DNA of 64,000 nucleotides. It comes from Actinomycetes bacterium (GTDB taxonomy: Bacteria > Actinomycetota > Aquicultoria > UBA3085 > Oleimmundimicrobiaceae). Made by a program: the position numbers and the translations under genes. Positions 36,552 through 41,377 of the stretch are shown here, one piece after another (positions within the stretch are counted from its first letter, which is position 1; each line of letters begins with the position of its first letter). The notes beneath the pieces are model-generated. The model was not told where the DNA came from. It saw only the letters and a list, made by a program, of their open reading frames with translations, and did no database searches. The DNA lies in the NCBI GenBank assembly GCA_030614255.1, contig JAUWKI010000003.1:1-64000 (forward strand), given 5' to 3'.

Positions 36552-37615
36552 AAAAAGATTCCAGAGCAAGCAAAAGGCGGGAAAAAAAGCAAAAATTAAG
36601 ACGCCGAATTATGCTTATTGTTGGCGCTACGCTAATCGTTGCTTTGCTTATCGGGGTAGTTGGTTCTCATTTCTTTGGAGATGGAGATGCCGATAATCTT
36701 GCTACCTCAAACTCTTCGGCTACAACTTCGAATAAGAATGCTAAAGTGGATGACTCTTCCTCGAAACCGGAGCTTGGTGACTCAGTCATTTTCCTGGTAA
36801 TGGGCGTACAAGACGAGAATGGCGAAGAACTTGTGGTTGAAACGCTGGCCCTATTTTGTGATTTAAAAGCGGGCATTTTAAATGGGATATCTGTTCCAAA
36901 AGATACTATTATTGAGATTCCGGGGTTAGGTTTTGAAAGAGTTAGCGAGATGCTTTCTTTAAAGAAGGATTCAACAGCAGTATCTGCCGTTCAAAATCTT
37001 TTCGGGGTCGAGCTTCATGGCTATGCAAAATTAGACCTTTTTGATCTCGAGAGAATTATGGATAAGAACGATTTTGAAAAAGTATTTGATAAGGCAAAAA
37101 GTTCGGATATTATATCGGAGCATCAAGAGAAGATATCATTGGCAATTGCCTCGATGGATCACCATGAAGATATAAATATTTTGCCCCTTCCCGTAAAAAA
37201 TCATGCGGTGGGAGATAAAATCTATTATGAGCCCAACAGAGAAGAGCTGGAAGGACTGCTCGCACGTCTTTGGGGAGTAGAAGTTGAACAGTCTGAGAAA
37301 ACAAAGGTTATGGTTTTAAATGGATGTGGGGTTCCCGGAGTTGCGGGAGAAGTTGCGGATAAGCTGATAAATATGGGATACCAGGTAGTGGGCACAAAAA
37401 ATGCGGATAATTTCAGTTACAAAGAGACTCAAATATTAGTTTATGGCGACAATGATGATGCCGCAAACGACATTCAGAAAGCGTTGGGGGTAGGTATAAT
37501 TATCGATCGGGCCATCACCCAGGAAGTAACTGATATTGTTGTGGTCGTGGGGAAAGATTATAATTTTGATGAAGAGCAAGATTCTGACGAAGATTTTCAT
37601 GAGGAAGCAAATTAA
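36509..37615 (+). CDS. LytR C-terminal domain protein with degenerate LCP-like region
   Basis: N-terminal basic segment plus TM; VMVLNGCGVPGVAGEVADKLINMGYQV; located between yqeK and rsfS; start uncertain. Confidence 0.7.
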   Translation: MELDSTGEDRRRTLKKDSRASKRREKKQKLRRRIMLIVGATLIVALLIGVVGSHFFGDGDADNLATSNSSATTSNKNAKVDDSSSKPELGDSVIFLVMGVQDENGEELVVETLALFCDLKAGILNGISVPKDTIIEIPGLGFERVSEMLSLKKDSTAVSAVQNLFGVELHGYAKLDLFDLERIMDKNDFEKVFDKAKSSDIISEHQEKISLAIASMDHHEDINILPLPVKNHAVGDKIYYEPNREELEGLLARLWGVEVEQSEKTKVMVLNGCGVPGVAGEVADKLINMGYQVVGTKNADNFSYKETQILVYGDNDDAANDIQKALGVGIIIDRAITQEVTDIVVVVGKDYNFDEEQDSDEDFHEEAN

Positions 37616-37634
37616 GCAAGGAGGCGATTGTTTA

Positions 37635-38006
37635 CTGAACGCTAAAGAAATTGCGAGGATGGCTGCGGATGCGGCGGTCGGCAAAAAAGCTGAAGACATC
37701 ATCATTTTAGACTTGAGCGATCTGTTGGGAATTGTCGATTACTTTGTAATCTGTGAAGGTAAAAATGATCGACAGGTTGATTACATTTCGGACTCAATTA
37801 AAGAAGAGTTGAGAAAAGACAGAGTAAAACCGTTCGGGGTTGAAGGAAATGGTAGAGCAGGATGGGTTTTGCTCGACTATGGCAGCGTGGTTATTCACGT
37901 ATTTACAACTGAGGTGAGACAGTACTATCAAATTGAGCGTCTCTGGAAAGATGCGCCTCAACTTGAGTGGGAAGAAACTTCCCGGCAAAAAGCAAACGCA
38001 GAATAA
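37635..38006 (+). CDS. rsfS: Ribosome silencing factor (probable CTG start)
   Basis: [L/M]NAKEIARMAADAAVGKKAEDIIILDLSDLLGIVDYFVICEG; SD aaggagg 37617-37623. Confidence 0.9.
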   Translation: MNAKEIARMAADAAVGKKAEDIIILDLSDLLGIVDYFVICEGKNDRQVDYISDSIKEELRKDRVKPFGVEGNGRAGWVLLDYGSVVIHVFTTEVRQYYQIERLWKDAPQLEWEETSRQKANAE

Positions 38007-38008
38007 TA

Positions 38009-38037
38009 TTGACATAGTTAAGCTGCTTTTATATAAT
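38009..38037 (+). promoter_or_regulatory. Predicted sigma70-type promoter for T-box/tRNA-Ala leader
   Basis: TTGACA, 17-bp spacer, TATAAT. Confidence 0.8.
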
Positions 38038-38226
38038 AATTTGGCAATTAAATACGGAGCTTTGAAGAAGAGCAGTAGACCTTAGACAAGATTTTAGAGA
38101 GTTGGGATGGTGGAAACCAATATCTGGTCGAGTCGAATTTATCTCTAAGCTTGGAGCTAAAAGTCATTGTGCTATTAAGCTTCGCGTTTAGTAAACATTA
38201 AGTCACCAAAAGAGAGCGAGTTTTGT

Positions 38227-38301
38227 GGGGATGTAGCTCAGTGGGAGAGCGCCTCCTTGGCGTGGAGGAGGCCGAGGGTTCAATCCCCTCCATCTCCACC
38301 A
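38227..38301 (+). tRNA. tRNA-Ala (anticodon GGC), CCA encoded
   Basis: GGGGATG acceptor, GCTC/GAGC D-stem, CCTCC-TTGGCGT-GGAGG anticodon arm, GAGGG-TTCAATC-CCCTC T-arm, CATCTCC-A-CCA. Confidence 0.96.
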
Positions 38302-38338
38302 ATTTATATCGCTAAATAGGGTGGTACCGCGAAAGAAT

Positions 38339-38369
38339 CCTTTCGTCCCTTTGGGTGAAAGGTTTTTTT
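38339..38369 (+). terminator. T-box-associated Rho-independent terminator
   Basis: CCTTTCGTCCCTTTGGGTGAAAGG followed by TTTTTTT. Confidence 0.9.
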
Positions 38370-38449
38370 GTTAGTTTTGTAAAGTACCAGTTTATCTGAT
38401 GTATATATTTTAAATGAAGCATTTTTATTAAATTTTAATTTGTTCATTT

Positions 38450-38640
38450 TTTTGCGCGCCTACTCGCTTACTCTCGCAGAGCGAAATCGCTATTTACCCT
38501 TCGGGCACGCGATTCCTGTCTGCCCTGCCTACCGGCAGGCAGGGTGCCGCTTCTACTCGAGTTTCACTCGTTTAACGGTGTGCTCAGAGTCACTCCAAGC
38601 AAGAGCCACGAGATGTTTTAAAAGCCACAAAATCTATAAA
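38450..38640. repeat. Divergent copy of dispersed ~200-bp element (family C) containing a CCTGCCTACCGGCAGGCAGG palindrome
   Basis: gcgaaatcgctatttaccc...gggcacgcgattcctg...cactcgtttaacggt...agtcac shared with 54652-54849. Confidence 0.7.
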
Positions 38641-38703
38641 GACTCTATTGGTTTTTCTAAGGGCTAAAGGCTGGGGGGGCTAATGGCTAGAGGCTGTTTT
38701 AAA

Positions 38704-38757
38704 AAGCTCTTTTGCTTTTCCTGGTGGCTGAAAGCTGGCAGCTGGAGGCTGAAAGCT
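38704..38757. repeat. Heptad repeats (RGCTGRN type)
   Basis: GGCTGAA AGCTGGC AGCTGGA GGCTGAA AGCTATA. Confidence 0.8.
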
Positions 38758-38914
38758 ATATTTTAATGATATAATATTCCAATCACTGGCTCTGACGATA
38801 AAATTGAGACCAGATACTGATTAATGATTTAGCTAAAAAGTGAGACCAACTTGAGTTGGCAAGATATCGCTCGCATCGGGGCGGAAGTTTATACCAGTTT
38901 CTATTGGAGGCAGT

Positions 38915-41377
38915 GTGGAAAAGTACGATTTTGCGCGGATTGAGAAAGAGTGGCAGAAAAAGTGGGAAGAATCGAAGATATATGAGGTCTCAGAAGATTC
39001 TGCGCAAAATAAAAAATATATCCTCGAGATGTTTCCATATCCTTCAGGGAACATCCATATGGGCCACGTAAGAAACTATTCCATCGGTGACGTCGTTGCC
39101 CGTTATAACAGGATGAGGGGCTACAATGTACTTCATCCAATTGGCTACGATGCTTTTGGCATGCCGGCTGAAAATGCGGCGATAGCCCACGGGGTTCATC
39201 CCAAGAAGTGGACTACCAAGAATATTGATATCATGCGAAATCAATTAAGAGGCCTGGGTTTGAGCTATAACTGGGATCGTGAAATCACAACCTGTGAGCC
39301 GGATTATTATAAATGGGGCCAATGGTTGTTTCTGCAGTTCTACAAAAGAGACTTGGTATATCGCAAGAAAGCCAAGGTAAATTGGTGTAATTCTTGCGAA
39401 ACAGTTCTTGCTAATGAACAAGTTGAAGCGGGAGGTTGCTGGAGATGTGGTACTCCGGTTGAGCCGAAAGAGCTTGCGCAATGGTTCTTCAATATCACAA
39501 ATTATGCCGAACCCTTATTAAAAGATCTTGATAAACTCCCGGGTTGGCCTGAGCGGGTCAAGGTTATGCAGAAGAACTGGATTGGCAGAAGTGAAGGAGC
39601 TTGGGTTGATTTTTCATTGAAGGACGGTGAGACTGTCACCGTCTTTACAACGCGACCTGATACCCTTTTTGGCTGCACGTTTTTCTTGCTTGCTCCAGAG
39701 CATGCTCTCGTTGATGAACTCATCAAAGACACTCCTTATAAAGACGAGGTTGTGAAGTTTAGAAAAAAAGTTGCCAAAGAGACCGAGATAGATAGAACAT
39801 CTACTGAAATTGAAAAGAATGGGTGCTTTACCGGAGCGTATATTATAAATCCCGTAAACAGAAAAAAGATACCGATTTGGGTAGCCGATTATATTCTCAT
39901 GGAATACGGAACAGGAGCGGTCATGGCGGTTCCTGCCCATGATGAGAGAGATTTTGCTTTTGCCAAGAAATACAATCTTCCCATTGAGCCGGTTATCCAG
40001 CCGACAGGTGAAGATTTTAGTTTGGGTCTCAAAGAGGCGTATGTGAGCGAAGGAGTAATGATAAACTCCGGTCAGTTTACCAATATGCCCAGCAAAGAGG
40101 GAGCAAGAGCGGTAACCAAATGGTTAAAGAAGCAGGGTAAGGGCGATTTTGCGGTGAATTACCGCCTACGTGATTGGTTGATTTCTCGCCAGCGTTACTG
40201 GGGCAACCCAATACCTATAATTTATTGTGATGAGTGTGGTGTAGTTCCTGTTCCCGAAGAAGATTTACCGGTCGTATTGCCGGACGATGTGGAGATTACG
40301 GAAAAAGGCGGCTCTCCTTTAGCTAAACATGAGAGCTTTGTGAACACGACGTGTCCGAGATGCTCTAAGCCCGCCAAACGGGAGACCGATACTATGGATA
40401 CCTTCACTTGCTCTTCGTGGTATTTCCTTCGTTATACAAGTCCTCATGAAGACAAAGGGCCCTTCAGTGTTGAGGCGGCTAATTACTGGATGCCTGTCGA
40501 CCAGTATATCGGTGGCATCGAACATGCGATTATGCACCTGCTATACTCTCGTTTTTTTACTAAAGTTATGAAAGATATGGGTTTGTGCGATGTTGAGGAA
40601 CCATTTTCCAACTTGTTAACCCAAGGGATGGTTATAAAAGACGGGGCCAAGATGTCTAAATCTAAAGGCAATGTGGTTGATCCCAATGAGATAATCAAAA
40701 CCTATGGAGCAGATACCGCAAGATTGTTTATCCTTTTTGCTTCACCTCCGGAAAAAGAACTCGAATGGAGTGATCAGGGAGTTCAGGGCTCTTACAGGTT
40801 TTTAAACAGGGTTTGGAGAATCGTTAAAAAGAATATAGAAGCTTCAAAAACGGATAGAAAATCCAAGTTGGATGAGGTTGACAGAGAACTCCAGAGGGTA
40901 ATTCATCGAACGGTAAAGAAAGTTACAATCGATATCGAGCGCTTCAATTTAAACACAGCCATAAGCGCGACAATGGAACTCGTAAATGCCAATCATAAAT
41001 ATTATGATGATAAAAATGAAGTAGAAGTAAATTCGGAGATATTAGCCGAGGCCAACGAAAAGTTGCTACTCACTCTCGCTCCTTTCGCTCCCCATATCAC
41101 CGAAGAGCTATGGAAAATGACGGGAAAGACGGAGAGTGTTCATCGTGCCAATTGGCCGGTTTTTGATGAGAAGCTTGCAAAAGCTGAAGAGATAGCTCTC
41201 ATTGTCCAGGTTAATGGTAAGGTGAGGGACAAGATAACGGTCTCTGCAGATATAGGAGAGGAAGAGATGAAAGAAGTCGCGCTTTCCAGTGAAAGACTGA
41301 GGCAGTTTACTAAGGGGAAGGAAATTGTTAAAGTGATAGTTATTCCAAAAAAACTTGTCAACGTGGTTGTGAGGTAA
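38915..41377 (+). CDS. leuS: Leucyl-tRNA synthetase
   Basis: [38 protein letters not shown]. Confidence 0.97.

Follow-up and report, generated by a model that had tools for sequence, protein, structure and literature searches.

A leucine T-box leader with a single-copy tRNA-Ala(GGC) gene at the predicted tip of its Stem III

The interval between rsfS and leuS

The window (the whole 64,000-nucleotide stretch of DNA analysed, from the genome here called G000) carries a T-box leader between rsfS and leuS, and within the leader lies a tRNA gene. The features are as follows.

37536-38006, + strand: rsfS, conserved upstream neighbour (PF02410, 1e-31)
38009-38037, + strand: sigma-70-type promoter TTGACA-17-TATAAT (12 of 12 positions fit the consensus)
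38053-38353, + strand: T-box leader, full-length RF00230 match into which the tRNA is inserted (92.5 bits, E 4.9e-21, model positions 1-219)
38096-38101, + strand: Stem I AGAGAG motif (sequence; RF00230 alignment)
38105-38118, + strand: Stem I distal loop GGATGGTGGAAACC (sequence; RF00230 alignment)
38138-38140, + strand: specifier position, UUU (6-nt spacing to AAG/GAG)
38210-38219, + strand: purine string AAGAG and Stem III 5' strand AGCGA (RRRNG-helix-AA geometry; MFE and centroid folds)
38227-38301, + strand: tRNA-Ala(GGC) with encoded CCA, predicted apical part of Stem III (ARAGORN; RF00005, 68.6 bits)
38309-38315, + strand: Stem III 3' strand UCGCU and conserved AA (geometry; MFE and centroid folds)
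38318-38331, + strand: T-box sequence AGGGTGGTACCGCG, antiterminator with UGGU bulge (RF00230 alignment)
38339-38370, + strand: intrinsic terminator and T tract (10-bp stem at 38339-38362, 7 T)
38915-41377, + strand: leuS, leucyl-tRNA synthetase, GTG start, the regulated gene (TIGR00396, 1118.9 bits; Pfam)

The initial annotation, made from the letters alone, had proposed the consensus promoter, the AGAGAG motif of Stem I, a nested tRNA-Ala(GGC) and, 3' of it, a T-box sequence with its terminator, and all of these are borne out. The covariance models that it suggested as a check match both parts, and ARAGORN agrees with RF00005 on the tRNA, in which the cloverleaf, the anticodon GGC and the encoded CCA are all present. 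The T-box score is 0.5 bit below the Rfam curated cut-off of 93 bits, so that a default whole-window Rfam scan reported the tRNA alone; in a short-region search, the RF00230 alignment places an insert of ~85 nt at Stem III. The antiterminator of AGGGTGGTACCGCG and the terminator have the CGTCCCT strand in common, making the two folds mutually exclusive, and the antiterminator carries a UGGN bulge. The promoter region before the leader is kept in the relatives G001, G003 and G024.

The leuS gene begins ~540 nt past the terminator in the window, compared with roughly 60-120 nt in many relatives. The intervening spacer (38373-38914) contains palindromic and GGCTGAAAGCT-like repeats, the spacer is also long in G003 (~385 nt), and that of G002 has a GGGGTCAGGTCT inverted repeat. 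Such repeat-bearing spacers may uncouple leuS from its leader.

Structural studies reviewed in PMC7583486 and PMC7778990 assign Stem III, with 5'-RRRxG on one side and AA-3' on the other, to the domain that senses tRNA charging. In nested leaders, the order is RRRNG, helix, tRNA, other strand, AA, two bases and AGGGTGG, and the window reads AAGAG-AGCGA...UCGCU-AA in this frame. With the RRRNG-helix-AA geometry fixed, a helix of at least 4 bp occurs in 83 of 106 loci; this strict rule finds none in the other 23. The mean helix length is 5.58 bp when each strand is paired with its own partner and 2.61 ± 0.14 bp when partners are swapped among loci (maximum 3.10 bp in 200 swaps), and pairs 1-4 show compensatory changes among GC, AT, CG and TA. 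Both the MFE and the centroid fold of the window set the cloverleaf on top of AGCGA/UCGCU. Together, geometry, covariation and fold argue that the tRNA forms the tip of Stem III. A pairing of upstream UCACC with GGUGG of the T-box, also seen in the window fold, was given no weight, being absent from some relatives.

The tRNA is thus positioned between sensor and antiterminator, as originally described, but not in a loose gap, since it caps a stem that is part of the discriminator. The Stem III helix, as predicted from covariation, can tie the halves that hold the sensor and the antiterminator to each other. The original argument that maturation of the tRNA must part sensor from actuator overlooks this conserved helix, which holds both flanks of the tRNA.

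Nested leaders across phyla

The same nesting had been proposed as something to look for in related genomes, and it is found in several phyla. A DNA search of relatives recovered it in G002 and G003 (the window's family), G024 and G012 (another family) and G013 (a third). We then scanned GTDB, taking one genome per species, for a tRNA 3' end followed by CCA, 5-35 nt and GGTGGNACCGCG. This pattern occurs at no fewer than 119 loci, and ARAGORN places a tRNA-Ala(GGC) correctly in at least 101, the window's own locus not counted. The tRNA-Ala(GGC) lies 11-33 nt before the T-box in 101 of the 119 pattern matches listed, and leuS is downstream (tblastn) in 94 of these 101, the other seven having <1.2 kb of downstream DNA. 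Bacillota (Syntrophomonas, Thermosyntropha, Desulfofundulus, Pelotomaculum and Symbiobacterium), Chloroflexota/Thermomicrobiota, Armatimonadota, Coprothermobacterota, Caldisericota and Actinomycetota are represented among the matches listed. A few odd host titles among them (Desulfovibrio, Bdellovibrionales) may stem from binning errors. Of 18 other loci tested, 8 give an RF00230 match that runs across the tRNA and exceeds the cut-off (93.7-129 bits).

No other tRNA species is convincingly nested among the matches listed, with a pattern that misses tRNAs lacking an encoded CCA. A tRNA-Ser beside GGTGGCACCGCG within a terminator hairpin (L072) was rejected as an apparent chance match; L080, L102 and matches in coding regions, such as that in G301, also looked like chance.

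Within Syntrophomonadia, the class of Syntrophomonas wolfei, the strict pattern occurs in 43 of 63 genomes, once in each, and the reversed pattern, used as a control in the same 63 genomes, gave 0 matches. A leuS start could be obtained for 16 of the 20 genomes that did not match. Ten of these are nested with a T-box that ends in ACCACG, in two both tRNA and T-box have decayed (one of them, G102, has another tRNA-Ala), and four have neither. Overall, the tRNA is nested in 53 of the 59 Syntrophomonadia genomes in which leuS was found, and in none of these 59 did we see a leuS T-box that lacked it. Elsewhere, 15 of 399 genomes in a Chloroflexota sample match the pattern, all with tRNA-Ala acceptor ends, and nesting in an Actinomycetota sample is confined to the window's class.

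At 42 nested loci, from Bacillota, Armatimonadota and Actinomycetota, the gene upstream is rsfS. A LeuS tree built for 60 nested loci has deep branches that mostly follow phylum. Synteny and tree together fit an old arrangement that, on this comparative evidence, was passed on largely by descent, with old transfers possible.

Several loci depart from the common layout. In the Desulfofundulus/Pelotomaculum group (L044, L060, L101 and L111), the nested T-box and leuS are separated by an acyl-CoA synthetase-like gene, which the same leucine leader apparently serves. In three Bacillota MAGs (L035, L054 and L097), the same arrangement of rsfS and nested tRNA leader precedes a very divergent LeuS (~44% identity); here the synthetase may have been replaced and the leader retained. 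At L010 (G012:C4) there are ~160 extra nt between tRNA and T-box, and RF00230 still aligns end to end with 89.7 bits. L018 (G037) has no T-box, and the tRNA-Ala(GGC) between its rsfS and leuS is encoded on the other strand. The G001 bin includes a divergent leuS with its own nested tRNA-Ala and a CUC specifier (L186, G001:C130), on a contig probably from another organism.

We found 43 tRNAs in the window's genome (assembly 97.2% complete), and the one tRNA-Ala(GGC) among them is the nested one; the other Ala tRNA gene found has the anticodon CGC. The Ala(GGC) pattern occurs once in 28 of 36 members of the window's class and never twice, and in Syntrophomonadia the nested copy nearly always accounts for the single tRNA-Ala(GGC). 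The nested tRNA is identical in G000, G002 and G003, although their whole leaders are 76-80% identical. The window's genome also has a T-box before a PLP aminotransferase gene (L002, G000:C10:12653-12899) with specifier GCC, which would read tRNA-Ala(GGC), so the leuS leader may supply this T-box with its ligand.

A proposed dual-output leader

What does the sensor read? A specifier context of AA-CUC-R-YY occurs in 93 of 102 nested leaders, against 0.6 in shuffles, and a spacing of 6 nt from the specifier to GAG/AAG gives CUC in 86 nested leaders other than the window's. The same spacing in the window's genome gives UUC for pheS, UGG for trpE and GCC for the aminotransferase T-box. Applied to the window, the rule gives UUU as the codon at the specifier position, and the fixed spacing rules out UUA, one base later. 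UUU is a codon for Phe and not for leucine, whereas relatives have nearly all CUC, and the pairing below the window's specifier contains an A-C mismatch. Covariation of Stem III and conservation of CUC indicate that a T-box can work with the tRNA in place; from these comparisons, the T-box appears to have stayed functional around the nested tRNA in the wider group.

We think it likely that the arrangement is a dual-output leader, in which a leucine T-box for leuS has a Stem III that ends in a tRNA-Ala(GGC) gene. This is the best supported of three alternatives in the initial annotation. Its basis is what the aligned sequences display: the leader anatomy and its conservation, the covariation of Stem III around the tRNA, the conserved specifier and the single-copy tRNA. 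At each initiation, the polymerase would transcribe Stems I and II, then the tRNA, then the antiterminator/terminator region. The tRNA lies 5' of the terminator and would therefore be present in every full leader transcript, regardless of leucine status, with a constitutive promoter and a terminator provided at no extra cost. Transcription of leuS would require antitermination by bound uncharged tRNA-Leu. Stem III would pair the two flanks of the tRNA and keep sensor and discriminator joined during the co-transcriptional decision. We infer that this decision, governed by tRNA-Leu, precedes processing and that both forms of the RNA are then processed, with RNase P and 3' trimming freeing the tRNA whether transcription stopped at the terminator or read through. 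A constitutive tRNA transcript, strongly promoted, combined with a regulated leuS transcript is the simplest reason for the stability of the arrangement. Weighing against this reading are, in the window, the UUU specifier, the A-C mismatch, the T-box score just under the cut-off and the long repeat-bearing spacer before leuS, and, beyond it, the T-box parts lost or damaged in the sisters G001, G003 and G004 and the 23 loci in which the strict rule finds no Stem III helix.

Alternative readings and relation to known systems

For the window's own lineage, a different fate is a serious contender, though we lean slightly against it: the riboswitch would be a relic, its sensor blind to tRNA-Leu, with the locus kept solely as a tRNA-Ala(GGC) gene and leuS served by another promoter or by read-through. 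Signs of decay accumulate in the family. The specifier is UUU in the window and G003 and UUC in G001; G001 is without an antiterminator, that of G003 is altered (GGTGGTATTGCG), and G004 retains only tRNA and terminator. Elsewhere in the class, the tRNA follows rsfS, has a promoter close by and lacks a T-box. The identity of the tRNA within diverged leaders points the same way. However, the antiterminator, terminator, purine string and Stem III of the window are all intact, G002 of the same family retains CUC, and a search of the window for a strong second promoter before leuS found none. Sequence comparison suggests that, in the window's clade, the riboswitch is being lost around a tRNA that the cell cannot do without, and the leucine-sensing half in the window's genome may be in early decay. 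The relic reading covers the window's copy only and is compatible with a dual-output leader in the wider group.

It is improbable that the nested tRNA takes part in the switching itself, as a processing-gated or tRNA-capped discriminator in which the way it folds or is cut by RNase P alters the antitermination decision; if true, maturation of tRNA-Ala would be coupled to expression of leucyl-tRNA synthetase. Slightly more doubtful still is the processing-gated switch of the initial annotation, in which cleavage at the tRNA parts sensor from antiterminator, sets the outcome and ties leuS to tRNA maturation capacity; no measurement requires it. The tRNA does lie between sensor and actuator in every case. 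A G(-2)U(-1) dinucleotide, able to pair with A73-C74, precedes 56 of 104 nested tRNAs and 17 of 73 other tRNAs at the examined loci, in counts that ignore phylogeny. Pairing between the leader and RCCA slows RNase P, and GU is among the slow dinucleotides (PMC9433436), but GU is also frequent in E. coli precursors (18 of 87; PMC9433436). The excess can equally be read as selection that delays cleavage, and GU at -2/-1 could postpone cutting until the decision has been made. Against gating, Stem III can keep the two halves joined after cleavage.

It is very improbable that the nested tRNA-Ala acts on the T-box in cis, as ligand or competitor, through docking of its elbow on Stem I or through ACCA-UGGU pairing. 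A tRNA extended at its 3' end acts like a charged tRNA in T-box biochemistry. The nested CCA has RNA 3' of it until processing, making the cis pairing with the UGGU bulge that had been suggested for the window unlikely. A CUC specifier does not pair with the anticodon GGC, and its conservation means that tRNA-Leu must still be read. The idea draws on the fit of the UGGU bulge to A73 of both tRNAs and on the elbow-binding motif common to Stem I and RNase P (PMC4919913).

The idea that a tRNA gene was recently inserted by chance and disrupted a single riboswitch, also raised initially, has nothing but the unusual arrangement to commend it and is refuted by a nesting kept across phyla with covarying Stem III pairing, intact specifier, purine string and terminator, and syntenic rsfS and leuS.

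The proposed dual-output leader shares with the leuS class of transcriptional T-boxes (RF00230) the Stem I motifs, a leucine specifier in most cases, the RRRxG-Stem III-AA arrangement, the UGGN bulge, the antiterminator/terminator pair and leuS downstream. It differs in that the loop of Stem III is replaced by a complete, single-copy tRNA-Ala gene. Other tRNA genes are co-transcribed with mRNAs or rRNA, and RNase P and 3' nucleases excise the tRNA. Excision from a longer transcript would be common to both, but here the tRNA sits inside a folded regulatory domain, upstream of a regulated terminator. In the thrS and tyrS T-box mRNAs of B. subtilis, the leader is cleaved 5' of the terminator region once the decision has been made. 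Cleavage of nested leaders would likewise follow the decision, but the cut would come from tRNA maturation enzymes and would free a tRNA.

Insertions in every T-box domain have been noted, their structure and function being unknown (PMC7583486). No tRNA gene is among the insertions and tandem T-boxes described in the text searched, whereas the insert found here has an identified, essential product. The passages searched of TBDB, Zhang 2020 and Wels 2008 make no mention of a tRNA gene inside a T-box, and none is described in the open-access literature searched; prior notice in subscription journals is possible. Nested tRNAs would naturally account for some T-box insertions that have lacked an explanation, and the failure of default Rfam scans to report some nested leaders calls for caution in annotation.

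Is the riboswitch read before it is cut? The question can be asked in cultured Syntrophomonas wolfei and Thermosyntropha lipolytica. Across phyla, the tRNA occupies the same structural slot, Stem III of the discriminator, in a domain found indispensable to sensing by recent structures. T-box leaders are usually viewed as purely deciding RNA; here, the leader doubles as a single-copy tRNA gene.
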